Source of the DNA: Streptomyces mirabilis
GTDB taxonomy: Bacteria > Actinomycetota > Actinomycetes > Streptomycetales > Streptomycetaceae
Direction: 5' to 3'
Assembly: GCF_039503195.1 (NCBI RefSeq)
Contig: NZ_JBCJKP010000001.1
Span: 8,680,001 to 8,744,000 of the forward strand
DNA length: 64,000 nucleotides
In this document: in pieces, positions 26,802 through 40,699 of the stretch
Layout of the letters: each line of letters begins with the position of its first letter
How positions within the stretch are numbered: the first letter of the stretch is position 1
Position numbers and translations under genes: made by a program
Notes under the pieces: model-generated
Database searches by the model: none
Told to the model about the DNA's origin: nothing
What the model saw: only the letters and a program-made list of their open reading frames with translations

Positions 26802-28697
26802 TCAACTCCTCTCCAGAAGCGGTCGGAGGAACTGCCCGGTGTAGGACCGAGGCTGGGCCGCCACCTGTTCGGGGGTGCCCTCGGCGATCACTGTGCCGCC
26901 GCGGTGGCCGCCTTCGGGACCCATGTCGACGATCCAGTAGGCGGTCTTGATCACGTCGAGGTCGTGCTCGATGACCACGACCGTGTTGCCTTGGTCGACG
27001 AGTCGGTGGAGCACGGCCAGCAGGTGGCGGACGTCCTCGACACGCAGGCCGGTGGTCGGCTCGTCGAGGACGTAGAGCGTTTCACAGGGCCCAGACCCAC
27101 GTCATGGAGCGTCCTGAGGTACCGGGGGGTGATCGCGTGTTCCGCGAAGAAACCCCGGCCGGCCTCGATGGTCATGCCCAGTACGTCGGCGATGGACCTG
27201 CCTTTGAAGTGTACGTCCAGGGTCTCCCGGTTGTACTGCGCTCCGTGACACACCTCACACGGCACGTAGATGTCCGGGAGGAAGCGCATCTCGACCTCGA
27301 GGGTGCCGTCGCCGTAGCGGTGCTGCCGCAACCGGTCGAAGACTCCTGTGTACGTCGCCGGGTTCGACCGGGGGCTGCGGCCGATCGGGGACGGGTCGAC
27401 CCGGACCACCTTGTCGATCTCCTCGACGCCGCTGATCGCGCCCCTCGCCGGACACGCCCGTGACGGCGACGAACTGCCCGAGCGGGAAGGAGACCGACAC
27501 CTCGCGCCTTCACGGTCTTCTCGTCGTGCTCGACGACGCTCACGGTGTTGCCACCGTCCCGCAGCCGCGGCGGTGTCTCGACGAGCCGTCGGTTGTCGCG
27601 CTGGTGCGGCCCGATGCTCGGTTCGTCCAGCACGTACAGCACGCCGACCGGACCGGCGCCGATCCGGGTGGCCGGCCGGATCCGCTGTGCCTCGCCGCCG
27701 GACGGACGGGCGGCGGGCCGGTTCAGTGACAGATGGTCCAGGCCGACGTCGAGAAGGAACGGCAGTCGCCCGCCGATCTCCGCGACGACGGCGTCGGCGA
27801 CTCGCCGCTCCCAGCCCGCCGGCTCCAGGTGCTGTACACATCGCGCGAGTTGATCGATGGGCAGTGCCGTCGGCTCGGCGATGGCGTGTCCGGCCACGGT
27901 GACGGCGAGCACGGCCGGTCTCAGCCGGGCGCCGCCGCAGGCCGGGCAGGGCAGCTCGTCGACAGGTGAGGTGGACCTGCTCCCGGAACCCGTGCAGCAC
28001 CACCTTCTTCGCGGTGGCGGACAGATGACGCCAGGGGGCGGCGGTGCTGAACCCGGCCGCCGCGGCCACCGCTTCGAGCCGTCGGGTGAAGTACTCGGCA
28101 CCGCTGGTGTTCGTCCACGGCGCGACGGCGCCCTCGGACAGCGACTTCTCCTCGTCCGGTACGACGAGTTCGGGGTCGACCTCCCTCCGTGAGTCCAGGC
28201 CGGTGCACTCGGGGCAGGCACCCCACGGCCCGTCGAAGGAGAACAGCCGCGGTTCCAGCGCCTCGAGGCCGATGTCCACGAGTCGACGCGGACGACGCCT
28301 CCGGCGAGCCCGAGCGCGGTCTCCACGGACTCGGTCAGCCGCTGTCGCGCACAAGCGTTCACCGCGAGCCGGTCCACGACCACGTCGATCGAGTGCTTCC
28401 TGCGCTTGTCCAGCGGTGGTGGCCCGGTGAGCGGCTGGACCTCCCCGCGACCCGCACCGGGCTGAACCCGTCGGCCCGCAACAGCTGGAACACGTCCGCA
28501 TACAACGGTCGGATGTAGACGGAAAGCGATTCGCCGTAACACCGTCGGCCCTCGGCGAACATCGTGTCGAAAGCCAGGCGGGATTTACCCGAGCCCGATA
28601 TTCCGGTGAAAACGATGAGCGCATTCCCGGGCAACTCCACGGAGATGTCACGCAGGTTGTGCCGACGGGCGCCCTTGACGACGAGCCGGTCTTTCAC
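26802..28697 (-). pseudogene. UvrA-like ABC protein (drug-resistance type), multiply frameshifted
   Basis: Starting at 28697 ([20 protein letters not shown]) the gene shows Walker [17 protein letters not shown], but the frame then changes at least four times. Pieces include the insertion-domain part LEPRLFSFDGPWGACPECTG, a damaged first signature SGGEAQRIRPATRIGAG, a damaged second Walker A (VTGVSGEGRDQ), VDPSPIGRSPRSNPATYTGV, and the last Walker B/H-loop ([32 protein letters not shown]). The second LSGGEAQ signature is deleted between GLGPVK and LYVLDEP. Total length is ~632 codons, shorter than UvrA (~1000) or drug-type paralogues. It cannot act as an ATPase. Confidence 0.88.
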
Positions 28698-28789: not shown

Positions 28790-29656
28790 TCACGCTTCGA
28801 CGAGCTCGCGGACGCCGTCCCGCACCTGCTGCTCCTGCTCATGCTCCTGCTCCAGCACCCGTTCCTGCTCCAGCACCCGCTCGGTCTCCTGCGTCCGCTC
28901 CGTCTCCTGCGCCCGCTCCTGCGCCTGCTTCTGCTCACCGACCGGGTGGCGGTGGCGGTACAGCCAGGTGATGTCGCGGCCGAACGACCAGATGAGCGAG
29001 GCGAGCGCGAGGAGTACCAGGGCGGCGTTGCCCTCCAGGGGCATGATCCCGGCGCCCGCGACGAGCAGCACGATCCCCTGAAGGGCTGCCACGGTCTTGC
29101 GCGCCATGCTGTGCGGCAGGGCCGCGTTCAGCCAGGGCAGCCCCCGGGCCGCCGCCACGAACGCGTACCGCATGGTGCCGATCAGCAGCACCCAGGGGCC
29201 CAGCGACATCGAGACGTACACGCTCAGCACCAGGATGAGGAACGCGTCCACCTCCATGTCGAAGCGGGCGCCCAGCGCGGTCGAGGTGCCGGTGTGACGG
29301 GCGACCTTGCCGTCCACCCCGTCGAGGATCAGGGCGACCGCCGTGAGACCGACGAGCAGGCTGACCGGGGGCGAGCTCTCGAAGGAGTCCGCGACCAGGG
29401 CGGTGACCCCGCCGACCAGGATGGCCCGGCCGAGCGTCACCCGATTGGCCGGTCCGAAGGAACGGGGCCGTGAGCGACGCAGGGCACGGGTCAGAACCGC
29501 CCAGGTGGCGAGCGCGAAGGCCAGACCGGTCAGCCAGCCCGCGGGCCCCATCCCGATCGCCGTGCCCAGCAGAGCCAGCACCAGGAGCTGCAGACCCGCT
29601 CCCACCGTGGTCTCCTGCGCCAAGAGCCTCGCGTCGTACGTGTTGTTCAGGGCCAC
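28790..29656 (-). CDS. CDP-alcohol phosphatidyltransferase-family membrane protein
   Basis: I start at the GTG 29654-29656 (MALNNTYDARLLAQETTVGA, 288 residues), because GGAGG (29665-29669) is 8 nt upstream; a GTG at 29719 has weaker support. The CDP-OH-P signature is complete: DGVDGKVARHTGTSTALGAR followed by FDMEVDA, giving the DGxxAR...G...D...D ligand set. Six or so membrane helices are present. The last ~45 residues are an unusual Glu/Gln/Arg tail (QERAQETERTQETERVLEQE) likely to form a coiled coil. The enzyme joins a CDP-activated alcohol to another alcohol in the membrane. It faces the dehydrogenase gene that starts the pterin/glycosyl cluster. Confidence 0.87.
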   Translation of the reverse strand: MALNNTYDARLLAQETTVGAGLQLLVLALLGTAIGMGPAGWLTGLAFALATWAVLTRALRRSRPRSFGPANRVTLGRAILVGGVTALVADSFESSPPVSLLVGLTAVALILDGVDGKVARHTGTSTALGARFDMEVDAFLILVLSVYVSMSLGPWVLLIGTMRYAFVAAARGLPWLNAALPHSMARKTVAALQGIVLLVAGAGIMPLEGNAALVLLALASLIWSFGRDITWLYRHRHPVGEQKQAQERAQETERTQETERVLEQERVLEQEHEQEQQVRDGVRELVEA

Positions 29657-29763
29657 CGCAACATCCTCCGGCCGTATGACAGAGTCGATCAACGCCGCGT
29701 ACAGTGCGCGGCTTGTCACCGCTCCGTACGTGAAGATCTGCTGAATCGTTCAGGGGGACGCTC

Positions 29764-30744
29764 ATGGAACTCACAGCTCGTGCCTTCTGGCTGAGCTCGC
29801 CCGGCCACGCCGAGATACGCGAGGTCGCCCTGCCGGCCCCCGGCGAGGGGGAGGTGCTGGTGCGCACGCTCTACTCGGGAGTGAGCCGGGGCACCGAGAC
29901 CCTCGTCTTCCGCGGCGGCGTTCCGGAAAGTCAGCATGCTTCGATGCGTGCACCGTTCCAGGACGGGGATTTCCCCGCACCGGTCAAGTACGGCTATTTG
30001 AGCGTCGGCCAGGTGGAAGAAGGCCCGGCGGGTCTGCGCGGCCGGACCGTCTTCTGCCTGTATCCGCACCAGACGCGCTACGTCGTGCCGCTGAGCGCCG
30101 TGACCGTCGTACCGGACTCCGTCCCCGCCCCGCGCGCCGTGCTCGCCGGGACCGTGGAGACCGCGGTCAACGCCCTGTGGGACGCGGCACCGCTGGTCGG
30201 CGACCGGATCGCCGTGGTGGGCGGCGGCATGGTCGGCTGCTCCATCGCCGCGCTCCTCGCCCGCTTCCCGGGTGTACGCGTCCAGCTGGTCGACGCCGAC
30301 CCCGCGCGCGCCGACATCGCCCGCGCCCTGGGCGTCGACTTCGCGCTCCCCGCGGACGCCGCCGACGAGTGTGACCTCGTCGTGCACGCCAGCGCCACCG
30401 AGGCCGGGCTCACCCGGTCGCTGGAGCTGCTCGCCCAGGAGGGCACCGTCCTGGAGATGAGCTGGTACGGCGACCGGCGGGTCAGCCTGCCGCTGGGCGA
30501 GGCCTTCCACTCCCGGCGCCTGGTCGTGCGCAGCAGCCAGGTGGGTTCCGTTTCCCCGGCGCGGCGCGCCAGTCGGACGTACGCCGATCGGCTGGCACTC
30601 GCCCTGGAACTGCTCGCCGAGCCCGCCTTCGACGCGCTCGTCACCGGTGAGTGCGGCTTCGACGAACTGCCCGACGTGATGCCGAAGTTGGCCTCCGGAT
30701 CGATACCCGGCCTGTGCCATCGCGTCGTCTACGAAGGCGTTTGA
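29764..30744 (+). CDS. Medium-chain dehydrogenase/reductase
   Basis: The 326-residue protein begins MELTARAFWLSSPGHAEIRE, with AGGGGG before the ATG. It is an MDR protein with GroES-like start (PAPGEGEVLVRTLYSGVSRG) and a Rossmann fold with AVVGGGMVGCSIAALLARFP and VQLVDADPARADIA. The usual catalytic zinc Cys of alcohol dehydrogenases is replaced in SGVSRGTE, and the structural zinc loop is missing, so it is likely zinc-independent. It heads the rightward set with the pterin-synthase homologue and may oxidise or reduce an intermediate of that pathway. Confidence 0.87.
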   Translation: MELTARAFWLSSPGHAEIREVALPAPGEGEVLVRTLYSGVSRGTETLVFRGGVPESQHASMRAPFQDGDFPAPVKYGYLSVGQVEEGPAGLRGRTVFCLYPHQTRYVVPLSAVTVVPDSVPAPRAVLAGTVETAVNALWDAAPLVGDRIAVVGGGMVGCSIAALLARFPGVRVQLVDADPARADIARALGVDFALPADAADECDLVVHASATEAGLTRSLELLAQEGTVLEMSWYGDRRVSLPLGEAFHSRRLVVRSSQVGSVSPARRASRTYADRLALALELLAEPAFDALVTGECGFDELPDVMPKLASGSIPGLCHRVVYEGV

Positions 30745-30747
30745 GCA

Positions 30748-30806
30748 CTGAACAACCTGCCTGACCTCCAAAAACTGCAAAGAAAGGGGAACAGGCAGCT
30801 GAACAA
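30748..30806 (+). promoter_or_regulatory. Repeat/hairpin in gap before pterin-synthase homologue
   Basis: CTGAACAA occurs at 30748-30755 and again at 30799-30806. Between them CTGCCTG (30757-30763) and CAGGCAG (30792-30798) form an inverted repeat with a 28-nt A-rich loop. The gap is only ~137 bp, so this may be a regulatory structure in the transcript. Confidence 0.35.
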
Positions 30807-30881
30807 GGAGAACGGGGCAGCCGTACTACACGGCATGGTCCCGGCAGGGGATCAGACGTGCCGCACCTGGAGGGTCGTCCG

Positions 30882-31280
30882 TTGTTCAGCATCACCGTCC
30901 GCGATCACCTGATGATCGCCCACAGCTTCCGTGGCGAGGTCTTCGGGCCCGCGCAGCGCCTGCACGGGGCGACGTTCCTGGTGGACGCCACGTTTCGCCG
31001 GGCCGAGCTGGACGACGACAACATCGTCGTCGACATCGGTCTGGCCACGCAGGAACTCGGCGCCGTCGTAAGCGCGCTGAACTACCGCAACCTCGACAAC
31101 GAACCGGACTTCAAGGACACCAACACCTCGACGGAGTTCCTGGCCAAGGTCATCGCCGACCGCCTCGCCGAGCGCGTGCACGCCGGGGCCCTCGGCGAGG
31201 GCGCCCAAGGCCTCGCGGGTATCACGGTCACCCTGCACGAGTCGCACATCGCCTGGGCGAGTTACGAGCGTGCGCTGTGA
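30882..31280 (+). CDS. 6-pyruvoyl-tetrahydropterin synthase / QueD homologue
   Basis: I choose the TTG at 30882 (protein begins [20 protein letters not shown], 132 residues): GGAGG (30869-30873) is 8 nt upstream and family members begin this way. An in-frame GTG at 30858 would add eight residues without a good site. Zinc-ligand histidines are visible in IAHSF and QRLHGATF, but the second is L-H-G rather than the usual H-G-H. The catalytic Cys of true PTPS is not evident, while ESHIAWASY gives the C-terminal Glu/His. It probably works on a pterin-like or pyrimidine product of GTP cyclohydrolase. It overlaps the glycosyltransferase by 4 bp. Confidence 0.85.
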
Positions 31281-32542
31281 CCGACACGACCATGGACCAG
31301 GCGTCCCCCAAGTCCGGTCCGGTGTCCCCGAAGACCGGCGAGGCGTCTGCGAAGACCGGCCCGGCGGCCGCGAACGGCGACCAGGCTTCCCTGAACTACG
31401 TGCCCGTGCAGCACACGGCTCTCAAGAACGCCGAGATCATCCCCATGTCCCTGCGCTCCGTGCACTTCGTGATGCCGGGCGGTGTCGACGACGCGTCCGC
31501 GCCCAGCGGCGGCAACGCCTACGACCGGCGGCTCTGCCTCGACCTGCCCGGCTTCGGCTGGCAGGTCCACAAACACGCCGTCGCGGGCAGCTGGCCCCGG
31601 CCGTCGGCCTCCGCCCGTACGGAGCTGGCCCGCACGCTCAGTGAGTTCCCGGACGACTCGGTCGTCCTCCTCGACGGGCTCGTCGCCTGCGGCGTCCCCG
31701 AGATCATCGCCCCCGAGGCCGAACGGCTGCGTCTCGCCGTCCTGGTGCACCTGCCCCTCGGCGACGAGACCGGGCTCGCGGCCGCCGTGGCCGCCGAGCT
31801 GGACGCGAAGGAACGGGCGACGCTGCGGGCCGTGTCCGCCGTCGTCGCCACCAGCGACTGGGCCGTCCGCCGGCTGGTCGCCCACCACGGGCTCGCCCCG
31901 GAACGGGTCCATGTCGCCGCCCCGGGCGCCGACATCGCGCCCCTCGCCTCCGGCACCGACGGCGTCTCCCGGCTGCTGTGCGTCGCCGCGGTCACCCCGC
32001 GCAAGGGCCAGCACCGGCTGATCGAGGCCCTCGCCACCGTCACCGACCTGCCCTGGAGCTGCGTCTGCGTCGGCGGACTCACCCAGGACCCGACGTACGT
32101 CGCCCAGCTGCGCGGCCTGATCGAGAAGTACGGGCTCGGCGACCGGCTGCACCTCGCGGGACCGCAGGCGGGCGCGGAACTCGACGCGAGCTACGCGGCG
32201 GCCGACCTCATGGTCCTCACCTCCTACGCCGAGACGTACGGCATGGCCGTCACCGAGGCGCTCGCGCGCGGGATCCCGGTGCTGGCGACCGACGTGGGCG
32301 GTCTCCCCGAGGCGGTCGGGCGCGCGCCCGACGGCGGGGTCCCCGGCATCCTCGTACCCCCGGAGAACCCGGCGGCGCTCGCCGCGGAACTGCGCGGCTG
32401 GTTCGGCGAGGCCGATGTGCGCCGCCGGCTCAAGGCCGCCGCGCGCGGTCGCCGGGCCGCACTGGACGGCTGGGCGACCACCGCCCGCAGCCTGGCCGGT
32501 GTGCTGGGACGTCTTCCGCAGCAGCCTCGGAGGGCGGCATGA
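31277..32542 (+). CDS. GT4-type glycosyltransferase
   Basis: The 421-residue protein starts with GTG in a GTGA overlap. A disordered Ser/Lys/Pro N-terminus (~55 residues) precedes the GT-B fold: [60 protein letters not shown] and the donor motif [20 protein letters not shown]. The EX7E-like element lies in the last segment. GT4 enzymes transfer sugar from a nucleotide donor with retention. It lies between the pterin-synthase homologue and a methyltransferase, so the pathway product is probably glycosylated. Confidence 0.92.
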
Positions 32543-33483
32543 GTATGACTGCGACTCCGTCGGGAGTTCCGGAACAGGGCGTGTCGGAGGTGGACGTGCA
32601 GGGTGGTGTGTCCGGGGTTCCGGGGCAGCGCGTGAGCGCGCCCGACGACGACGTGCCCCGCTACGCCCCCCAGTGGCTCCAGCTGCGGGAGCCGGCGGAC
32701 GCCGCCGCACGGGCGCCCGAACTGCTCGACCCGCTGCGCGTCCGGCTGGCCAACCGGCCGGGCCGCGGCGGCGATCTGGTGGTCCACGACCTCGGCTGCG
32801 GCACCGGCTCCATGGGCCGCTGGCTCGCCCCCCGGCTCGACGGCGCCCAGCACTGGATCCTGCACGACCGGGACCCCTATCTGCTGCACTTCGCGACCGT
32901 GGGCGCACCGCACGCGGCCGCCGACGGCAGCCGGGTCACGGTCACCACCCAGCGCGGTGACATCGGCCGGCTGACCGCGGACGCGCTGGCCGGGGCGTCG
33001 CTGGTGACGGCGTCCGCCCTCCTCGACGTGCTGACCCGTGAGGAGATCGACCGGCTCGCGGCGGCCTGCGCGGGCGCCGGGGTGCCGGCCCTGCTCACGC
33101 TCTCCGTCGTGGGGCGCGTCGAGTTCACACCGGCCGATCCGCTGGACGCCGAGTTCGCCGAGGCGTTCAACGCCCACCAGCGGCGCGGGGAACTGCTCGG
33201 CCCCGACGCGATCACGGCGGCCTGCGAGGCCTTCGACCGGCACGGCGCGACGGTACGGGTGCATCCGAGCCCCTGGCGGCTCGGCGCCGACGAGGCCGAC
33301 CTCACGGCGGAGTGGCTGCGCGGCTGGGTCGGCGCGGCCGTCGAGGAGCGGCCCGCGCTGGCCGCCCGTGCAGAGTCATATCTGCAGTCCCGCCTCGCCG
33401 CCTGTGCCGCGGGTGAGCTGCGCGTACGGGTCCACCACAGCGACGTCCTGGCGCTGCCGCGGCCGACCGGCGGTGCGGCGTGA
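32539..33483 (+). CDS. Class I SAM-dependent methyltransferase
   Basis: The ATG at 32539 overlaps the glycosyltransferase stop, and GGAGGG precedes it. The 314 residues contain motif I as DLVVHDLGCGTGSMGRWLAP, an acidic motif II (HWILHDRDPYLL) and SLVTASALLDVLTREEIDRL near motif IV. The first ~45 residues are low-complexity. The acceptor is unknown. It is translationally coupled to both neighbours, making it a core member of the glycosyltransferase cluster. Confidence 0.88.
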   Translation: MSMTATPSGVPEQGVSEVDVQGGVSGVPGQRVSAPDDDVPRYAPQWLQLREPADAAARAPELLDPLRVRLANRPGRGGDLVVHDLGCGTGSMGRWLAPRLDGAQHWILHDRDPYLLHFATVGAPHAAADGSRVTVTTQRGDIGRLTADALAGASLVTASALLDVLTREEIDRLAAACAGAGVPALLTLSVVGRVEFTPADPLDAEFAEAFNAHQRRGELLGPDAITAACEAFDRHGATVRVHPSPWRLGADEADLTAEWLRGWVGAAVEERPALAARAESYLQSRLAACAAGELRVRVHHSDVLALPRPTGGAA

Positions 33484-34874
33484 GCGCCGGGGCGGGGACG
33501 GCGGAAGCGGTCGGCGTGGACGCGGGCACCTCCCGCCCGCGCGGCGCGGCGACCGCGGTCCGGGTCCACGCCGACGCGGACCTGGTTCCGGTGCGCGGCG
33601 ACGTGAGTCCGGCGGACACGGCACCGACCGGTGGCGAGGTGGGTGAACCGCGCTCCGAGGGTGAGCCGAACGTGGCGCCGGCCCTCCAGGAAGCCGACCC
33701 GACCCCCGCCCACCGCAAGGGGGGCTCCCTGCGCACGCACATCGGTTCCGTCGCCGGCGTCCTCATCCTCGGTGTGCTGCTCTGGCGGCTCGGTACCGGT
33801 GTCTTCCTGGACGGCCTGCGACGGGTCGACGGGCCGACCCTGCTGGCAGGGCTGGGGCTCGGCCTGCTGACCACCGTGTTCAGCGCCTGGCGCTGGTGCC
33901 TGGTGGCACGTGGGCTGCGGATCCGGCTGTCGCTGGGCGGCGCCGTCGCGGACTACTACCGCGCGCTGTTCCTGAACGCGGCGCTGCCCGGCGGAGTCCT
34001 CGGCGATGTGCACCGTGCCGTACGACACGGCCAGAGCACCGGGGACGTCGGCCGCGGCGTACGCGCCGTGGTCCTCGAACGGACCGCGGGCCAGGCGGTC
34101 CTGGTGGCCGTCGGCGCGGTGGTCCTGCTCACCTTCCCGTCACCGGTCCTCGCGGACGCCCGCCAACTCGCCCTGATCCTGGCGATCGTCTCGGTGTGCG
34201 GAGTCGTCACGGCGGGCGCGGTCCGCAGGGGCAGCGCCCAGTCCGGCCCGTCCCGGCGCCACCGAGCCGTCCGCGCCACGCTCACCGAGGCGCGCGGCGC
34301 GCTGCTCGCCCGCGGCAACTGGCCGGGCGTGCTCATCTCGTCGGTCGTGGTGCTGGCGGGACATCTGGCGATGTTCCTGCTTGCCGCCCGCGTCGCCGGA
34401 TCCCACGCCTCCGCCGCCGTACTGCTGCCGCTCGCCCTGCTGGCCCTGCTCGCCATGGGCCTGCCGCTGAACATCGGCGGCTGGGGCCCCAGGGAGGGCG
34501 TCATGGCCTGGGCCTTCGGCGCCGCCGGGCTGGGCGCCGGCCTGGGCCTGAGCGTCGCGGTGATCTACGGAGTGCTCAGCTTCGCCGCCGCCCTGCCAGG
34601 CGTCGCGGTCCTGGTCGTCCGGTGGTTCGCGGCGCTGCGGCGCCCCCGGCAGGAGAACGCAGGAGGGCACGATCAATGCCGAGCGTCAGAGACCGCCGAA
34701 GTTCACACTCCGGAAGTCCCCTTGGCCGGGGCCGCGTCGGAGGCAGTGGGCAGCGTCTTCGCCGTCACCAAGGAGAAGTACGCCCCGAAGGCCTCGGTCA
34801 GCCCCGCCAGGAGCTCCTTCCCCTTCTCGGCGGACGCCTTCGAGGGACGGCCGATGACGCCGGACTCGGTATAG
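33480..34874 (+). CDS. Lysylphosphatidylglycerol-synthase-type transmembrane protein
   Basis: The gene starts GTG in an overlap with the methyltransferase and encodes 464 residues. About 80 disordered residues lead to 8 or so membrane helices of the LPG_synthase_TM/UPF0104 type: IGSVAGVLILGVLLWRLGTG, VFSAWRWCLVARGLRIRLSL, YYRALFLNAALPGGVLGDVH and PLNIGGWGPREGVMAWAFGA are signature stretches. The family includes AglD-like and flippase-like proteins. The C-terminal ~60 residues run antisense over the creatininase gene end (172 bp overlap), which may be real or mean that the true stop is lost. It probably moves or anchors the product of this cluster in the membrane. Confidence 0.83.
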   Translation: MSAGAGTAEAVGVDAGTSRPRGAATAVRVHADADLVPVRGDVSPADTAPTGGEVGEPRSEGEPNVAPALQEADPTPAHRKGGSLRTHIGSVAGVLILGVLLWRLGTGVFLDGLRRVDGPTLLAGLGLGLLTTVFSAWRWCLVARGLRIRLSLGGAVADYYRALFLNAALPGGVLGDVHRAVRHGQSTGDVGRGVRAVVLERTAGQAVLVAVGAVVLLTFPSPVLADARQLALILAIVSVCGVVTAGAVRRGSAQSGPSRRHRAVRATLTEARGALLARGNWPGVLISSVVVLAGHLAMFLLAARVAGSHASAAVLLPLALLALLAMGLPLNIGGWGPREGVMAWAFGAAGLGAGLGLSVAVIYGVLSFAAALPGVAVLVVRWFAALRRPRQENAGGHDQCRASETAEVHTPEVPLAGAASEAVGSVFAVTKEKYAPKASVSPARSSFPFSADAFEGRPMTPDSV

Positions 34875-35506
34875 CCGGCCATTCCGAGGGTGAGCAGATG
34901 ACGCCGGTCGTCCGCGACGAAATCGGAGGTCTCGTAACCGGGCCGGACCAATTCAGGATGCGTGTGCAGAAGAATGGAGGTCTCGATTTCACCGGCATGC
35001 ATATCGGTGAGCAACGAGGTCTCCACACCTGCCCGTTCCAGCGCGGCCTCCCAGTCCTCCATGGCCGGGAAGAGTGCCATACGCGTACCGGTGCCGACGG
35101 ATTCCTGAACCACGTTGCCCAGCACGTAATTCCCGCCGTGCCCGTTGACCAGCACCAGGGTGTCGACGCCGGAGTGGCGCAGCGATGCGGCTATGTCCCG
35201 CACCACCGCGTGCAGCGTGACGGCGGAAATGCTGACGGTACCCGGCCAGGCCGCGTGCTCGTGCGAGCAGGAGATCGTCACCGGAGGAAGGAGATGGACC
35301 GGATGAGCGGCGGCGATCCGTTCCGCGACGGCGCACGCGACCAGGGTGTCCGTCGCCAACGGAAGGTAGGCACCGTGCTGTTCGAAACTCCCGACGGGAA
35401 GCACGGCGACCTCACGGGCGACACCGGCCCCCCGCTCGCGTACATCCTCCGTGGTGTCCGTAGGCAACAGACCGGATACCGCCGAGCGCGTTCCCGAACC
35501 ACTCAT
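34703..35506 (-). CDS. Creatininase-family amidohydrolase
   Basis: The 267-residue protein starts MSGSGTRSAVSGLLPTDTTE. Metal ligands of the creatininase fold are all visible: VLPVGSFEQHGAYLPLATDT (Glu, His, Asp), ISCSHEHAAWPGTVSIS (His) and VLVNGHGGNYVLGNVVQE (His/Glu). Archaeal ArfB of this family deformylates a GTP-derived formamidopyrimidine, and creatininase itself opens a lactam. Lying head-to-head with GTP cyclohydrolase II, 49 bp apart, suggests a related step on a GTP-derived pyrimidine. Confidence 0.9.
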   Translation of the reverse strand: MSGSGTRSAVSGLLPTDTTEDVRERGAGVAREVAVLPVGSFEQHGAYLPLATDTLVACAVAERIAAAHPVHLLPPVTISCSHEHAAWPGTVSISAVTLHAVVRDIAASLRHSGVDTLVLVNGHGGNYVLGNVVQESVGTGTRMALFPAMEDWEAALERAGVETSLLTDMHAGEIETSILLHTHPELVRPGYETSDFVADDRRHLLTLGMAGYTESGVIGRPSKASAEKGKELLAGLTEAFGAYFSLVTAKTLPTASDAAPAKGTSGV

Positions 35507-35555
35507 GTTTCACGGCCTTTCGACGCTGCTTTCGACTCTGCTTAGGAACCAGATC

Positions 35556-36245
35556 ATGACAGATAACTTTGGAGTACTCGCCGGGACCGCACGCCTCACA
35601 GGTGTCGAACGAGTTGTGAATGCCCCTTTGCCCACCGTGTACGGCGACTTCCAGGCGGTCGGCTTCCTGGACCACGATCGCGGAGAGGAGCAAGTGGCCC
35701 TGGTTTACGGGGAGGTCGGCGACCTCAGCAAGAGCGGGGAAGGCGCCACGAAGGAGGGCGTCCTCACCCGGCTCCATTCGGAGTGCCTCACCGGGGACGC
35801 CTTCGGCTCCACCCACTGCGAGTGCGGTGACCAGCTCGCCGCCGCGCTGCGCGCCATCGTGGCGGAGGGCCGTGGCGTCCTCGTCTACCTCCGCGGTCAC
35901 GAGGGCCGCGGCATCGGCCTGCTCGCCAAGCTGCAGGCGATGAAGCTCCAGTCGGAGGGTCTCGACACCGTCGAGGCGAACGTCGCCCTCGGCCTCCCGG
36001 TCGACGCCCGTGACTACCGCGTCGCGGCGGACATCCTGCACGACCTCGGCGTCCGCTCCGTACGCCTGCTCTCGAACAACCCGCGCAAGCGGGAGTCGCT
36101 CCAGCGCAACGGCATCAAGGTCGCCGAGCAGGTCCCGCTGCTCATACCGCCGTGCCCGCAGAACATCACCTATCTGCGCACCAAGCGGGAGCGCCTCGAC
36201 CACTTCCTGCCCCACCTGGACGTGGTGGTCTCCCACTCCTCCTGA
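35556..36245 (+). CDS. ribA: GTP cyclohydrolase II
   Basis: The ATG at 35556 gives 229 residues beginning MTDNFGVLAGTARLTGVERV. The family core is intact: zinc Cys cluster in LHSECLTGDAFGSTHCECGD, the GTP/active-site block LVYLRGHEGRGIGLLAKLQA, VDARDYRVAADILHDLGVRS and LLSNNPRKRESLQRNGI. The enzyme turns GTP into 2,5-diamino-6-ribosylamino-pyrimidinone phosphate, formate and pyrophosphate. It lacks the DHBP-synthase domain that RibBA carries, so it is a stand-alone GCH II. Beside the creatininase, pterin-synthase homologue, glycosyltransferase and methyltransferase, it is more likely to feed a special pathway than riboflavin. Confidence 0.95.
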   Translation: MTDNFGVLAGTARLTGVERVVNAPLPTVYGDFQAVGFLDHDRGEEQVALVYGEVGDLSKSGEGATKEGVLTRLHSECLTGDAFGSTHCECGDQLAAALRAIVAEGRGVLVYLRGHEGRGIGLLAKLQAMKLQSEGLDTVEANVALGLPVDARDYRVAADILHDLGVRSVRLLSNNPRKRESLQRNGIKVAEQVPLLIPPCPQNITYLRTKRERLDHFLPHLDVVVSHSS

Positions 36246-36320: not shown

Positions 36321-37298
36321 ATGACCGACGACGTCCTGTACCTCTCCCGGGACCGGGTGACGGAGCTGTTGGACACCGATGCGGCGATCGCCTCGCAGCG
36401 CGCGGCGTTCACCGCGCTCGGTGACGGCACCGCCGAGCTCCCCGGCAAGATCATGCACCCCAGCCGATTCGACGACAGCGTCGTCTTCGCCTACCTCGCC
36501 CGGCTGTCCGCCGACACCGGGGCCGTCGCCAAGTTCGGCAGTGTCAACCCGGCCAACACGGCGGCCGGGCTGCCGACGGTGCACGCCGTGATCAACGCGC
36601 TCGATCCGGTGACCGGGCAACTCGCCGCCGTCATGGACGGTACGGCGGTCACGACCCTGCGCACCGCCGCGGCGAGCGCCGTCGCCCTCGACGCGCTGGC
36701 CACCGCCGACAGCGCGGAGCTGGGCCTCCTCGGCTCCGGCACCCAGGCCCTCGCCCACGCGCGGGCCGTCGCCCGGGTGCGGGACCTCAGGTCCGTACGG
36801 GTGTGGAGTCCGAACCCGGCCCGACGGGCGCGGGCGGCGCGGCGCCTCGCGACGGAACTCGGGGTCGCGACCAGGGCCGTCGACACGGCGGAGGAAGCCG
36901 TCGCGGGCCTGCCCATGGTCGCCGCCTGCACGCTCAGCAGCACACCCGTCGTACGGGGCGCGTGGCTGGCTCCCGGGTGCGCGGTCGTCAGCGTCGGCTC
37001 CTTCGAGCCCACCCGCAGCGAGGTCGACACGGACGTCGTGCGGCGGGCGGCGGCGGTCGTGGTCGACGACCCGGAGACGGCGGCGGAGCACGCCGGACCG
37101 ATCGTGGACGCGCTGCGGGAGGGAGGACTCACGCGCGCCGACCTGATCCCGCTCGGCGGCGTCCTCACCGGCAGCCACCCGGCCCGCACCCACCCCGACG
37201 ACATCGTCTTCTACAACAGCGTCGGGCTCGGCATCCAGGACGCCGCCGCGGCCTGGGCCGTGATCGAGGCCGCTCGTGCCCGGGAGGCGCGCCGATGA
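36321..37298 (+). CDS. Ornithine-cyclodeaminase/mu-crystallin-family protein
   Basis: The 325-residue protein starts MTDDVLYLSRDRVTELLDTD, with AAGGA close to the ATG. Family elements are FAYLARLSADTGAVAKFGSV (substrate Lys), PTVHAVINALDPVTGQLAAV, LRTAAASAVALDALA and the Rossmann motif ELGLLGSGTQALAHARAVAR. Members are cyclodeaminases, imine reductases or dehydrogenases. In a run with FAD-oxidase and saccharopine-type genes, reduction of a cyclic imine such as piperideine-carboxylate is a fair guess. It overlaps the next gene by 4 bp. Confidence 0.88.
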   Translation: MTDDVLYLSRDRVTELLDTDAAIASQRAAFTALGDGTAELPGKIMHPSRFDDSVVFAYLARLSADTGAVAKFGSVNPANTAAGLPTVHAVINALDPVTGQLAAVMDGTAVTTLRTAAASAVALDALATADSAELGLLGSGTQALAHARAVARVRDLRSVRVWSPNPARRARAARRLATELGVATRAVDTAEEAVAGLPMVAACTLSSTPVVRGAWLAPGCAVVSVGSFEPTRSEVDTDVVRRAAAVVVDDPETAAEHAGPIVDALREGGLTRADLIPLGGVLTGSHPARTHPDDIVFYNSVGLGIQDAAAAWAVIEAARAREARR

Positions 37299-38440
37299 CC
37301 GGGAGCGCGCGGGTCGTCGTCATCGGCGGCGGGGTGATGGGCACGAGCATCGCCTACCACCTGGCCCGGGCCGGTGTACCGGACGTGGTGCTCGTCGAGC
37401 GCGACGAACTCGCCTCCGGGTCCACCTCGCGGGCCGCGGGCGGGGTCCGGGCGCAGTTCTCCGACGAGCTGAACATCCAGCTGGGTGCCCGGAGTCTCGA
37501 GGCGTTCGCCCGTTTCGGTGAGGAACCGGGCCAGGACATCGGACTGCGCCGCGTCGGCTATCTGTTCCTGCTCTCCACGCCCGAGGAGGTCGCCGCCTTC
37601 GAGGACGGCGTACGGCGGCAGAACGCGCTCGGGGTGCCCAGCCGTCTGATCGACCCGGCCGAGGCCCAGCGGCTGTCCCCGCTGATCAGCACCGACGGGT
37701 TGCTGGCGGCGGCCTTCTCCCCGGACGACGGGCACTGCACGCCCGAGTCCGTCGTGCAGGGCTACGCGGCCGGGGCCCGCCGGTACGGCGCGACCGTGTT
37801 ACGGCACCGCGAGGTCACCGGCATCGAGACCCGCGGCGACGAGATCACCGCGGTCGTCACCAGCCAGGGGCGGATCGCCACCGACACGGTCGTCTGCGCG
37901 GCCGGTGCCTGGTCGCGGGCGGTCGGCGCGATGGTGGGCGTGGATCTGCCGGTGGAACCGCTGCGCCGCCAGATCGCCGTCACCGAGGCCGTCCCGGGCC
38001 TGCCGCCCGACCTCCCCATGACCATCGACTTCACCACCAGCCTCTACTTCCACTCCGAGGGCCCCGGCCTCCTCCTCGGCATGTCCGACCCCGACGAGGT
38101 CCCCGGTTTCGCCACCACTCCCCACGACCGCTGGATCCCCCGCCTGTCCGAGGCGATGGAGCGCCGCGCCCCGGCCCTGCTCGACCTGCGCCGGACGGGC
38201 GGCTGGGCGGGCCTGTACGAGATCACTCCGGACCACAACGCCCTGATCGGCGAGGCGCGTTCGTGCGCGCGCTTCCTGTACGCGACGGGGTTCTCGGGCC
38301 ACGGCTTCCTCCAGGGACCGGCGGTCGGCGAGGTGATCCGTGATCTGTACCTGGGCCGCGTACCCTTCGTCGACATCAGCCCCCTGAGCGTCGAGCGCTT
38401 CACCGCCGACGCCCCGCGCCCGGAGGTCAACCTCGTATGA
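37295..38440 (+). CDS. DAO-type FAD-dependent amine/amino-acid oxidoreductase
   Basis: The 381-residue protein begins MTGSARVVVIGGGVMGTSIA, with the dinucleotide motif VVIGGGVMGTSIAYHLARAG and GSTSRAAGGVRAQFSDELNI as in sarcosine-oxidase beta-like enzymes. The C-terminal FAD closure is LYEITPDHNALIGEARSCAR then GFSGHGFLQGPAVGEVIRDL. It oxidises a secondary or primary amine of an amino acid to an imine. Position inside the lysine-type cluster suggests saccharopine or pipecolate as substrate. It is coupled by 4-bp overlaps on both sides. Confidence 0.9.
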   Translation: MTGSARVVVIGGGVMGTSIAYHLARAGVPDVVLVERDELASGSTSRAAGGVRAQFSDELNIQLGARSLEAFARFGEEPGQDIGLRRVGYLFLLSTPEEVAAFEDGVRRQNALGVPSRLIDPAEAQRLSPLISTDGLLAAAFSPDDGHCTPESVVQGYAAGARRYGATVLRHREVTGIETRGDEITAVVTSQGRIATDTVVCAAGAWSRAVGAMVGVDLPVEPLRRQIAVTEAVPGLPPDLPMTIDFTTSLYFHSEGPGLLLGMSDPDEVPGFATTPHDRWIPRLSEAMERRAPALLDLRRTGGWAGLYEITPDHNALIGEARSCARFLYATGFSGHGFLQGPAVGEVIRDLYLGRVPFVDISPLSVERFTADAPRPEVNLV

Positions 38441-39555
38441 CCGAGCTCCACTTGTGGCTGCGCCACGAGATCCGTACGACCGAACGGCGTACCCCGATCG
38501 TGCCCGCGGACGCCCGACGGCTCGTCGAGAGCGGCGTGACGCTCACGGTCGAGGAGTCGCCGCAGCGGGTCTTCCCCATCGAGGCGTACGAGGAGGCCGG
38601 CTGCCGGGTCGCGAAGGCGGGCTCCTGGGTGTCGGCGCCCCCCGAAGCCGTCATCGTGGGACTGAAGGAACTCCCCGACGGACCACCCGCACTGACACAT
38701 CGCCATGTCTTCTTCGGGCACGCCTACAAGCGGCAGCCGGGGGCGGCGGCGCTCCTCCGCAGGTTCCTCGCCGGGGGCGGGGCCCTGCTGGACATCGAGT
38801 ACCTGGTGCACGACGACGGGCGCAGGCTCGCCGCGTTCGGCTACTGGGCCGGATACCTGGGCGCCGCCCTGGCGGTGCTGCACCACCGGGGCAGCCTCAA
38901 GGCCCCGTTGCGACCCACCTCGAAGGAGGACCTGGACGCCGAACTCGCCTCCGAGAAGGGCGAGTTGCCAGCTCTCGTCATCGGCGCGCTCGGCCGCAGC
39001 GGCCGGGGTGCCCGGGTGGCGCTGGGCGTGGCCGGGGTCGAGCCCACCAGCTGGGACCTCGCCGAGACCCGGGAGCTGGACCGACCCGCGCTGCTGGCAC
39101 ACGAGTTGATGGTCAACACCGTGCTCACCACCCGGCCGATCCCGCCCTTCCTCACGGACGAGGACCTCGACGAGCCCGGCCGCCGGCTGCGCACCCTGTG
39201 CGACGTCACCTGCGACGTCGGGTCCCCCCTGAACGTGCTGCCGATCTACGACACCACGACGGACTGGACGCACCCCGCCCGCCGCATCCGCGAGCGGCCC
39301 GCCCTCGACCTGATCGCCATCGACAACCTGCCGTCGCTGCTGCCGCTGGAGGCGAGCGTCGACTTCTCGGCGGCGCTGCTGCCCCAGCTGCTGGAGTTCG
39401 GGCTCGGCGGACCGTGGGGGCGCTGCCTGGACAGCTTCCACGAGGCGTGCCGCGCCCTCGAAGCCGAGGAAGCCGCGGATGCCGGGGTGGCTGACGAAGC
39501 CGAGAAGGCAGAGCAAGCCGAGAAGACAGAAGATGGGGAGCCGCGTGATGTCTGA
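38437..39555 (+). CDS. Saccharopine dehydrogenase, lysine-forming type (LYS1-like)
   Basis: The 372-residue protein starts MTELHLWLRHEIRTTERRTP, matching the alanine-dehydrogenase-like start of LYS1 enzymes. Further motifs are GHAYKRQPGAAALLRRFLAG, LVIGALGRSGRGARVALGVA (NAD fold) and IAIDNLPSLLPLEASVDFSA, the diagnostic LYS1 segment. The end is a Glu/Ala/Lys tail of ~35 residues. LYS1 interconverts saccharopine with lysine plus 2-oxoglutarate. Complete saccharopine pathways are rare in bacteria; with the LYS9-like gene that follows, both halves are present here. Confidence 0.9.
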   Translation: MTELHLWLRHEIRTTERRTPIVPADARRLVESGVTLTVEESPQRVFPIEAYEEAGCRVAKAGSWVSAPPEAVIVGLKELPDGPPALTHRHVFFGHAYKRQPGAAALLRRFLAGGGALLDIEYLVHDDGRRLAAFGYWAGYLGAALAVLHHRGSLKAPLRPTSKEDLDAELASEKGELPALVIGALGRSGRGARVALGVAGVEPTSWDLAETRELDRPALLAHELMVNTVLTTRPIPPFLTDEDLDEPGRRLRTLCDVTCDVGSPLNVLPIYDTTTDWTHPARRIRERPALDLIAIDNLPSLLPLEASVDFSAALLPQLLEFGLGGPWGRCLDSFHEACRALEAEEAADAGVADEAEKAEQAEKTEDGEPRDV

Positions 39556-40699
39556 GGTGACGGCCGCGAGCGGCACCGTCCACTGGATCGGGGCGGGCCT
39601 GTCCACCGGCAGCGGTCTCGCCGCGACCTGCGACGCCGCCGACCGCGTACGCCTGTGGCACCGCACCGAGGAGCGTGCCGCGCGCAGCCTGGAGGCGCTG
39701 GGCCTGACCGGGCGGGCCCAGCCCGGTGCCTACACACGGGAGGCGCTCGCCGCCGAACTCGCCCCCGGAGACGTCGTCGTCTCCATGCTGCCCGCGCCCG
39801 AACACGCCCCGCTGCTCGCCGTCTGCGTCGAGCGCGGCGCCCACTTCGCCTGCTCCAGCTATGTGTCGGACGCGGTCCTCGACCAGGTGCCCGCGGCCGA
39901 GGCGGCGGGAGTGGTGGTGCTCACCGAGTGCGGGCTCGACCCGGGCATCGACCACCTCTTCGCACACAGTCTGATCGCCCGGGCCGAGGCCGAGATCGGC
40001 GCCGACTCGGCCGCCTCGTACCGCCTCACCTCGTACTGCGGCGGCATCCCCGCCGTGCCCAACGACTTCAAGTACCGCTTCAGCTGGGCACCCGCGGGCG
40101 TGCTCAACGCTCTCCGTTCGCCCGCCCGATACGTCGAGGACGGCACCGAGACCACCGCCGACCGCCCCTGGGAGGCCACCCGCCCGCACCTGATCGACGG
40201 CGAGGCCTTCGAGGTCTACCCCAACCGCGACAGCGTGCCCTTCGTCGAGCAGTACGGGCTTCCCGGCACCTGGACGCCGGAGACCTTCGTGCGCGGCACC
40301 CTGCGCCTCGACGGCTGGCTGCGGGCCTGGGACACGGTCTTCGAGGAGTTGAAGGCGGGCGACGACCGGCGGATCACCGCCCTCGCCCAGGAGCTGGCCA
40401 GGACCTATCCGACCACCGACGCGGACCGTGACCGGGTCGTCCTCGCCGTCTCCCTCGACGTGCGCGGCGGCGCCGGCGCGACCTGGTCGGGGCGCTACCT
40501 CCTCGACCTCGTGGGCACCGCCGAGGAGAGCGCCATGGCCCGCTGTGTCTCCCGCACGCTCGCCCTCGGGGTCCGCCACATCCTGGACGGTTCGCTCCCG
40601 CCGGGCCTCGGCCGCGCCGCGGAGACGGCGGAGCGCTCCGAGGAGTGGCTGGCCGAACTCGCCGGGGAGGGAGTGCCCTTCACCCTGCGCGTGGGGTAG
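39548..40699 (+). CDS. Saccharopine reductase/dehydrogenase, glutamate-forming type (LYS9-like)
   Basis: The ATG at 39548 has GGGGAG 7 nt upstream and gives 383 residues. The NADP fold starts GTVHWIGAGLSTGSGLAATC. Then LAPGDVVVSMLPAPEHAPLL and VVVLTECGLDPGIDHLFAHS match the LYS9 signature (GLDPGIDHL), followed by SYRLTSYCGGIPAVPNDFKY. LYS9 interconverts saccharopine with aminoadipate semialdehyde and glutamate. Together with the LYS1-like gene it can convert lysine to the semialdehyde, which cyclises to piperideine-6-carboxylate. It overlaps LYS1 by 8 bp. Confidence 0.9.
   Translation: MSEVTAASGTVHWIGAGLSTGSGLAATCDAADRVRLWHRTEERAARSLEALGLTGRAQPGAYTREALAAELAPGDVVVSMLPAPEHAPLLAVCVERGAHFACSSYVSDAVLDQVPAAEAAGVVVLTECGLDPGIDHLFAHSLIARAEAEIGADSAASYRLTSYCGGIPAVPNDFKYRFSWAPAGVLNALRSPARYVEDGTETTADRPWEATRPHLIDGEAFEVYPNRDSVPFVEQYGLPGTWTPETFVRGTLRLDGWLRAWDTVFEELKAGDDRRITALAQELARTYPTTDADRDRVVLAVSLDVRGGAGATWSGRYLLDLVGTAEESAMARCVSRTLALGVRHILDGSLPPGLGRAAETAERSEEWLAELAGEGVPFTLRVG

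Follow-up and report, generated by a model that had tools for sequence, protein, structure and literature searches.

This locus raises the question of what is made by a GTP cyclohydrolase II (GCH II) that is encoded among genes for sugar transfer, methyl transfer, and membrane proteins. It lies in a 64,000-nucleotide stretch of Streptomyces mirabilis DNA (the window) and comprises these genes:

28790..29719, minus strand: CDP-alcohol phosphatidyltransferase (CDPOH), membrane module; PF01066, 49.8 bits
29764..30744, plus strand: BchC-like medium-chain dehydrogenase (ADH), core; NCBIfam bchC, 57.1 bits, below cut-off
30858..31280, plus strand: 6-pyruvoyl-tetrahydropterin synthase (PTPS) homologue lacking the catalytic Cys and His, orthologue of S. 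coelicolor SCO6650; PF01242, 80.8 bits; PDB 3d7j, 260 bits
31277..32542, plus strand: GT4 glycosyltransferase, core; PF00534, 107.5 bits
32539..33483, plus strand: SAM-dependent methyltransferase (MT); PF13649, 29.5 bits
33480..34874, plus strand: LPG_synthase_TM flippase-like membrane protein (LPG-TM), membrane module; PF03706, 101.7 bits
34703..35506, minus strand: creatininase-family hydrolase; PF02633, 209 bits; best NCBIfam match MftE, below cut-off
35556..36245, plus strand: GCH II with Met at the reported switch position; PF00925, 217 bits

The first-pass annotation had named all of these except the dehydrogenase, and Pfam recovered each named gene at its position. The 49 bp gap it gave between GCH II and creatininase agrees with a likely GCH II ATG at 35556 and a creatininase start codon ending at 35506, and the tight run from PTPS to LPG-TM is borne out by 4 nt overlaps at the PTPS/GT4, GT4/MT, and MT/LPG-TM junctions. 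The convergent LPG-TM and creatininase reading frames overlap by 172 nt. The dehydrogenase scores 28.1 bits against Pfam ADH_zinc_N (cut-off 31.8), and BchC, its best NCBIfam match, has a cut-off of 291 bits. LPG_synthase_TM is the sole Pfam match in the 464 aa of LPG-TM, and Pfam did not detect the aminoacyl-transfer domain of an MprF/lysyl-PG synthase in this protein. A search of the eight proteins for defence systems returned a single match of 16.5 bits, on the dehydrogenase, and none for the rest; a defence-system reading was dropped.

Conservation of the genes as a block was checked in other genomes, and they are kept together both within Streptomyces and across phyla; the opposite outcome was not seen. 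The PTPS homologue is present in 92 of 199 Streptomyces genomes, 90 of which also have the creatininase, and the two genes are 3.6–5.0 kb apart in the 81 same-contig cases. Largely the same gene order is found in Halomonas, Gemmatimonadota, Acidobacteriota, and Nocardioides, and loci of the set span Actinomycetota, Pseudomonadota, Chloroflexota, Gemmatimonadota, Acidobacteriota, and Planctomycetota. The multi-phylum set is the best 80 of 558 confirmed stretches, obtained with search patterns that favour FGPA..HG[HA]; it contains ADH in 76/80, GT4 in 76/80, a stand-alone RibD_C reductase in 65/80, MT in 51/80, and GCH II in 31/80. MT is undercounted, as the methyltransferase after GT4 in locus L053 was seen by Pfam and missed by the MT profile. 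Among the 101 loci sampled, ADH adjoins PTPS in 93, GT4 lies directly 3' of PTPS in 90, and RibD_C occurs in 74, in genomes other than that of the window; 20 loci (L041–L060) were hand-picked, and counts over 80 or 48 loci are fairer than those over 101. Pairwise distances correlate well between ADH and PTPS (r = 0.87) and between ADH and GT4 (r = 0.75). The association of these genes exceeds chance; the loci that were counted had also served to train the family profiles, the Fisher values ignore kinship, Halomonadaceae are over-represented, and genes past contig ends are hidden. To this extent the earlier interpretation is supported: the genes form a conserved unit, separate from the riboflavin genes, that combines the opening of GTP with transfer of sugar and methyl groups, the membrane genes being optional.

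GCH II SCO6655, studied by Spoonamore, Bandarian, and co-workers, reportedly stops at the formylated pyrimidine by virtue of a Met at the switch position. The residue of the window GCH II that aligns with E. coli Tyr105 is Met, as it is in all 12 Streptomyces block enzymes (the window and 11 others), which form a distinct Met-bearing clade. The Met is found in 0/33 loci of other lineages, and non-block copies have Tyr in 23/23. The Streptomyces block enzymes thus carry the SCO6655-type residue, and FAPy-forming activity is predicted for them. Block GCH IIs are drawn from several unrelated GCH II lineages. The enzyme thus entered the block repeatedly, as would be expected if its activity is required there. 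Of the 25 genomes whose block has GCH II, 24 contain another GCH II match, which in G609 is no more than a 51-position fragment; in Chloroploca the block copy is the only GCH II found. GCH II is missing within 10 kb in 25 of the 48 well-flanked loci sampled, the subset used for co-occurrence of GCH II, creatininase, and membrane genes, and its correlation with core genes is weak (ADH, r = 0.15; PTPS, r = 0.19); it may therefore be accessory.

The creatininase had been proposed to deformylate the GCH II product. This is probable in Streptomyces, and as a plain role it is weakened elsewhere: 14 of the 33 Tyr-type GCH II loci also carry a creatininase, so the Met switch alone is an insufficient reason for its presence. 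In the 48 well-flanked loci sampled, the creatininase is accompanied by LPG-TM (17/17) more consistently than by GCH II (13/17), which makes deformylation alone an insufficient explanation. The three block creatininases scanned (window, L104, and L136) all fall below the MftE cut-off (TIGR03964, 172 bits; 128.7, 111.1, and 119.7 bits, respectively) and the ArfB cut-off (NF033501, 180 bits; 34.8, 25.0, and 28.4 bits).

The catalytic motifs of PTPS-I, -II, and -III are CxxxHGH, CxxxxxHGH, and ExxHGH (PMC5041015). That paper also lists a PTPS-V whose function it calls unclear, and the block PTPS might belong there. None of them is found in the block PTPS alignment rows. The QueD Cys column is Ala in 100/100 readable rows, and at the third zinc His 82 rows have Ala and 18 have His, a motif that the search patterns favour. 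We take the Asp-His pair to be catalytic and the Glu to anchor the ring. In 101 rows the His of the pair is replaced by Tyr (82), Phe (18), or Leu (1), the Asp column is still D in 17, and the anchor Glu is kept in all, so the set as a whole is lost despite the Glu.

GT4 and MT share one open frame in 9 of the 101 loci sampled. Against the GT4 profile the tetrahydrobiopterin glucosyltransferases score 58.0 bits (rank 21/73; best, 164.4) and are not the nearest solved relatives, which lends no special support to GT4 as a pteridine glycosyltransferase. CDPOH retains D..DG..AR........G...D...D, presumably the CDP-alcohol phosphatidyltransferase motif, in 47/47 rows, and ADH is the next detected gene to it in 40/101 loci sampled. 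CDPOH and LPG-TM are both present in 20 of the 48 well-flanked loci sampled, and a lipid linkage is plausible only where they co-occur.

The earlier statement that riboflavin genes are absent stands for the GCH II and RibD_C families, genome-wide searches for which gave no further copy in the window. RibD_C is missing from the window block and from most sampled Streptomyces blocks. Both block RibD_C proteins scanned with Pfam lack the deaminase domain, and all four scanned against the archaeal ArfC reductase model TIGR01508 score 96–150 bits (cut-off 186). The S. mirabilis genome has RibE with RibBA at 2.23 Mb and, at 5.15 Mb, a reductase-deaminase in reversed order beside another GCH II. The closest RibD_C match in that genome is 34–36% identical. 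The 5.15-Mb RibD_C was rejected as a relocated block gene: it is a reductase-deaminase in reversed order and shares 34% identity with the type found in Streptomyces blocks, though it clusters with the RibD_C proteins from blocks of other Actinobacteria. FolB lies at the core in Rubrobacter and Chloroflexota-type loci. Among 13 genomes examined that have FolB at the block, 10 have no other FolB, which makes it a weak candidate for a dedicated block partner. Of 31 genomes with the block that were checked for GCH I, 30 have it, the exception being the MAG of L071, so the block is not supported as a pterin source for genomes lacking GCH I.

The recurrence of the block points to an uncharacterised pathway whose product carries a sugar, may resemble a pterin, and may be attached to the membrane in some lineages. 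We see about an even chance that it is a dedicated, transferable biosynthetic unit converting GTP to a glycosylated, usually methylated 2-amino-4-oxo-pyrimidine or pterin. GCH II would open GTP, the Met-bearing Streptomyces form stopping at FAPy as reported for SCO6655, and the creatininase would probably remove the formyl group there. Elsewhere, the Tyr-type GCH II implies that the creatininase has a different or an additional task, perhaps a late one together with the membrane module. In most lineages the stand-alone RibD_C, missing in the window block, would then reduce the ribosyl side chain, and because there is no deaminase the 2-amino group would stay. The BchC-like dehydrogenase and the PTPS-fold protein may jointly act on side chain and ring, GT4 would add a sugar, and MT a methyl group. 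Where present, CDPOH may place the product on a lipid and LPG-TM may move it across the membrane. This scheme is supported by the cross-phylum gene order, the ADH correlations with PTPS and GT4, the open frames shared by GT4 and MT, the invariant anchor Glu, the repeated recruitment of GCH II alongside a further genomic match, and deformylation by BrbF (PMC9478397). It is weakened by the loci without GCH II, the weak correlation of GCH II with the core, the missing RibD_C in the window and most Streptomyces, and the low rank of GT4. A more specific version is improbable: a GCH I-independent pterin formed by a redox bypass of the Amadori step, in which RibD_C would reduce the ribosylamine to ribityl, the dehydrogenase re-oxidise C2', and the catalytically bare PTPS fold close the ring, with glycosylation, methylation, and export as a pterin lipid where CDPOH and LPG-TM are present.

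Loss of the PTPS catalytic residues, together with RibD_C in 65 of the best 80 of 558 loci and no deaminase domain in the two scanned, also suits a ribityl-pyrimidine glycoside, in which GCH II, deformylase, and RibD_C mimic the ArfA-ArfB-ArfC opening, the ring stays open, and the PTPS fold merely holds the pyrimidine. We regard this as possible but doubtful, since the four reductases and three creatininases scanned score below the archaeal cut-offs, the creatininases far below, and a PTPS-fold protein at the core, with FolB in some loci, favours a pterin. The frequent lack of GCH II near the core and the different histories of the two would fit a core that is supplied with its precursor, a pterin or a sugar, by enzymes outside the block such as GCH I, which nearly all block genomes examined have, with GCH II a passenger or accessory in some lineages; the sole GCH II of Chloroploca is counted on the same side. 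Recruitment from several unrelated lineages and the distinct Streptomyces Met clade make this unlikely. A role in riboflavin synthesis, whether as the housekeeping pathway or as a redundant copy, is disfavoured to the point of being barely credible. GCH II and RibD_C are riboflavin families, but RibBA and RibE are encoded elsewhere in the S. mirabilis genome, a second GCH II match is present in 24 of the 25 genomes that have one in the block, and we know of no role for PTPS, GT4, MT, or LPG-TM in riboflavin synthesis. In PMC2853524, SCO6655 expression runs against modelled riboflavin-pathway flux (r = −0.61), but so does that of SCO2687 (−0.52).

The preferred pathway from GTP to a glycosylated pyrimidine or pterin puts two S. 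coelicolor proteins in context, a GCH II that is reported to stop early and the PTPS homologue without catalytic residues. SCO6650 and SCO6655 were reportedly studied by Spoonamore, Bandarian, and co-workers in 2006 and 2008 without a role being found, and we know of no product of the SCO6650-SCO6655 region. The window PTPS is the SCO6650 orthologue, the window GCH II shares the Met reported for SCO6655, and locus numbers imply four genes between them, as in the window; nothing speaks against this being the same block. We found nothing in the open-licence literature on the gene combination, SCO6650, or SCO6654, whereas gene names from the range SCO6648-SCO6655 occur in two papers; print elsewhere is possible. 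By locus-number count the methyltransferase orthologue should be SCO6652, which in PMC3610822 rises by log2 4.3 (48 h) and 4.1 (72 h) over 16 h, at second-mycelium stages, and this offers a laboratory strain and a growth stage in which to seek the product. As the loci span six phyla, very different bacteria may share one metabolite.

The archaeal ArfA-ArfB-ArfC route to riboflavin and F420 offers a possible common order of formylated pyrimidine, creatininase-superfamily deformylase, and stand-alone RibD_C reductase. Unlike that route, the block has GCH II rather than GCH III, mostly Tyr-type, scores low against ArfB and the archaeal reductase, and adds GT4, MT, and membrane genes. BrbF of Sinorhizobium meliloti is a formamidase of the creatininase superfamily that deformylates the formylated pyrimidine, but in a riboflavin context unlike the block enzyme (PMC9478397). 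Its substrate is the product ascribed to Met-type GCH II. Pterin glycosides are reported from cyanobacteria (PMC13259868). Although the block PTPS lacks catalytic residues and its GT4 is not specially close, the block resembles tetrahydrobiopterin glucoside synthesis in cyanobacteria and Chlorobium in pairing a PTPS family member with a glycosyltransferase.

The conserved block around the 6-pyruvoyl-tetrahydropterin synthase homologue (PTPS) consists of a dehydrogenase (ADH), the PTPS fold, a glycosyltransferase (GT4) and usually a SAM-dependent methyltransferase (MT). GTP cyclohydrolase II (GCH II), a stand-alone reductase domain protein (RibD_C, PF01872), a creatininase, and the membrane genes for a CDP-alcohol phosphatidyltransferase (CDPOH) and a flippase-like LPG_synthase_TM protein (LPG-TM) are members in part of the loci. 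The window spans 8.68–8.744 Mb of an 11.1-Mb genome, and every gene named in the first-pass annotation was located there. The features in and beside the block are as follows.

26951-28697, minus strand: probable remnant of a decayed uvrA, with UvrA_DNA-bind and UvrA_inter domain pieces spread over overlapping frames
29764-30744: medium-chain dehydrogenase (ADH) between the CDPOH and PTPS genes; top NCBIfam match BchC, 57.1 bits, below the cut-off
35556: ATG of GCH II, 49 bp from the divergent creatininase gene, the spacing originally described
36321-40699, plus strand: overlapping or closely spaced ornithine-cyclodeaminase-like, FAD oxidase, AlaDh/PNT_N-domain and saccharopine-dehydrogenase genes

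The last three of these genes also follow the block in L045, L056, and L058; in L050 the FAD oxidase gene does so. The best named matches of the window PTPS are Streptomyces proteins. Its one PDB match at E ≤ 0.001 is S. coelicolor SCO6650 (3d7j, 260 bits), and the window is therefore read as the counterpart of the SCO6650-SCO6655 region.

Within Streptomyces, the genes are conserved as a unit. PTPS (E ≤ 1e-6) is present in 92 of 199 genomes and a creatininase (≥69% identity) in 91, and the two occur together in 90. PTPS lacks the creatininase in G477 and G561 only, and the reverse holds in G491 only. The distance between them is 3,611–4,969 bp in all 81 genomes that carry both on one contig; in the remaining nine they lie on separate contigs of assemblies of 70 to 1,380 contigs. 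A weaker creatininase match (≤64% identity) was detected in 14 further genomes, none of which has PTPS. Second PTPS copies in G414 and G476 (L047 and L048) have no other block gene nearby.

A species-genome collection was scanned with a PTPS alignment, the 80 best-scoring of 558 confirmed stretches were taken, and their families were called with family profiles within 10 kb. These 80 loci contain ADH (76), GT4 (76), RibD_C (65), MT (51), CDPOH (33), GCH II (31), LPG-TM (23), and creatininase (19). Conservation as a block extends beyond Streptomyces: the order CDPOH< ADH> PTPS> GT4> MT> LPGTM> RIBDC< GCH2> CREAT< recurs in Halomonas, Vreelandella, Chromohalobacter (L105), and Methyloversatilis (L111). 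Variants place GCH II past the creatininase (Gemmatimonadota L098), invert RibD_C (Wenzhouxiangellaceae L136), or have no detected LPG-TM (Acidobacteriota L134) or MT and creatininase (Nocardioides L081). All nine families are present in 13 of the 48 loci that are flanked by 7 kb or more on both sides, and PTPS and GT4 stand alone in two (L080 and L093). In some Proteobacteria the block is adjoined by genes for an FkbM methyltransferase, an MdoH-like glucan glucosyltransferase, or a cytochrome b561-type protein (L104 16228-19037, L095 4719-7164, L121 6087-7994); the MdoH-like gene occurs in 14 of 101 loci. In loci of Rubrobacter and of the Chloroflexota type (L053, L054, L061-L071), FolB adjoins the core, in most with a PlsC-type acyltransferase; of 13 such genomes examined, 10 have no other FolB.

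RibD_C escaped the first-pass annotation because it is absent from the window's block. It lies immediately upstream of ADH in 33 of 101 loci and immediately downstream of LPG-TM in 26 (21 turned, 5 not). Four Streptomyces loci have it in the block (L049, L051, L052, L060), and L046 carries an actinobacterial-type copy. The two block proteins scanned with Pfam lack the deaminase domain, and in four the NCBIfam match is restricted to the RibD reductase part, all below the archaeal-reductase cut-off. The RibD_C tree consists of separated lineages, with a long-branch warning on one row from the window's own genome. At 5.15 Mb of that genome (L155 7495-10040), a reversed RibD, reductase domain first and deaminase second, accompanies a MarR regulator and a third GCH II; this GCH II and RibD_C cluster with those of other actinobacterial blocks.

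The PTPS residues were read in a 101-row alignment, in which we take the Cys, Asp-His, zinc His, and anchor Glu columns to have the roles seen in PTPS structures. The QueD Cys column is Ala in all 100 readable rows. In the Asp-His pair, the His column reads Tyr in 82 rows, Phe in 18, and Leu in 1, and Asp is retained in 17 rows. The third zinc His column is Ala in 82 rows and His in 18, the latter from Rubrobacter, Chloroflexota, and Thermomicrobiota loci. All 101 rows keep the anchor Glu. The SCO6650 structure paper reportedly gives neither zinc nor PTPS activity. Subfamily signatures for comparison come from PMC5041015.

Pairwise distances correlate well between ADH and PTPS (r = 0.87) and between ADH and GT4 (0.75), but poorly between GCH II and either ADH (0.15) or PTPS (0.19). 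The GCH II tree (68 rows, 45 block and 23 others) requires six label changes, at least five of them forced by starred branches. The 12 Streptomyces block sequences that bear Met at the switch column described below group in a 21-row set with actinobacterial RibBA (support 97/86). Six further block sequences from actinobacteria group with the 5.15-Mb GCH II (7-row set, 100/100), and 19, mostly proteobacterial, form a separate set (98/88). ADH, PTPS, and GT4 were thus co-inherited, whereas the block acquired GCH II on more than one occasion. This repeated recruitment is taken to favour GTP opening as part of the pathway, although 25 of the 48 well-flanked loci have no GCH II near the core. On a dedicated pathway versus housekeeping, a further GCH II match exists in 24 of the 25 genomes whose block includes the gene (only a fragment in G609; Chloroploca is the exception). 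Of 31 block genomes examined, 30 have GCH I, and the window's genome encodes RibE and RibBA at 2.23 Mb. The Halomonas block GCH II (L104 14103-15362) has an N-terminal extension; its top NCBIfam match is PRK08815 (positions 54-412, 333.5 bits, below the cut-off).

Spoonamore et al. (2006) reportedly found that SCO6655 releases a formylated pyrimidine because Met replaces a Tyr. The switch column was read as that of Tyr 105 in E. coli GCH II (chain 2bz0), which we take to be the published position. The window GCH II has Met there and belongs to one of 12 block loci with this residue, all Streptomyces and all with the creatininase. Tyr occupies the column in 33 block loci, 14 with a creatininase and 19 with none, and in all 23 non-block GCH II. 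Among the 48 well-flanked loci, 17 have the creatininase; all 17 of these also have LPG-TM, and 13 have GCH II. Where it is absent, LPG-TM is present in 4 and GCH II in 10. In the full set of 80 loci, 18 of 19 creatininases accompany LPG-TM (the exception is L134). The proposal that the creatininase deformylates the GCH II product is thus compatible with Streptomyces, but the 14 Tyr loci and the closer tracking of LPG-TM count against it in other lineages. These counts restrict the formylated product-to-deformylase scheme for GCH II and CREATININASE to Streptomyces.

We infer that the putative product is GTP-derived, glycosylated, and methylated; it may be a pterin or a ribityl pyrimidine, and possibly lipid-linked. 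On the boldest reading of the gene neighbourhood, ring closure might follow ribose reduction and re-oxidation, consistent with the neighbours RibD_C, ADH, and PTPS. Among known systems, S. meliloti BrbF shows that a creatininase-family protein is capable of deformylating the formylated pyrimidine (PMC9478397). SCO6655, like SCO2687, is listed with expression anticorrelated to predicted flux in PMC2853524. Counted by locus number, the block methyltransferase of S. coelicolor should be SCO6652, for which PMC3610822 gives log2 values of 0.8, 4.3, and 4.1 in second mycelium at 24, 48, and 72 h relative to 16-h first mycelium.
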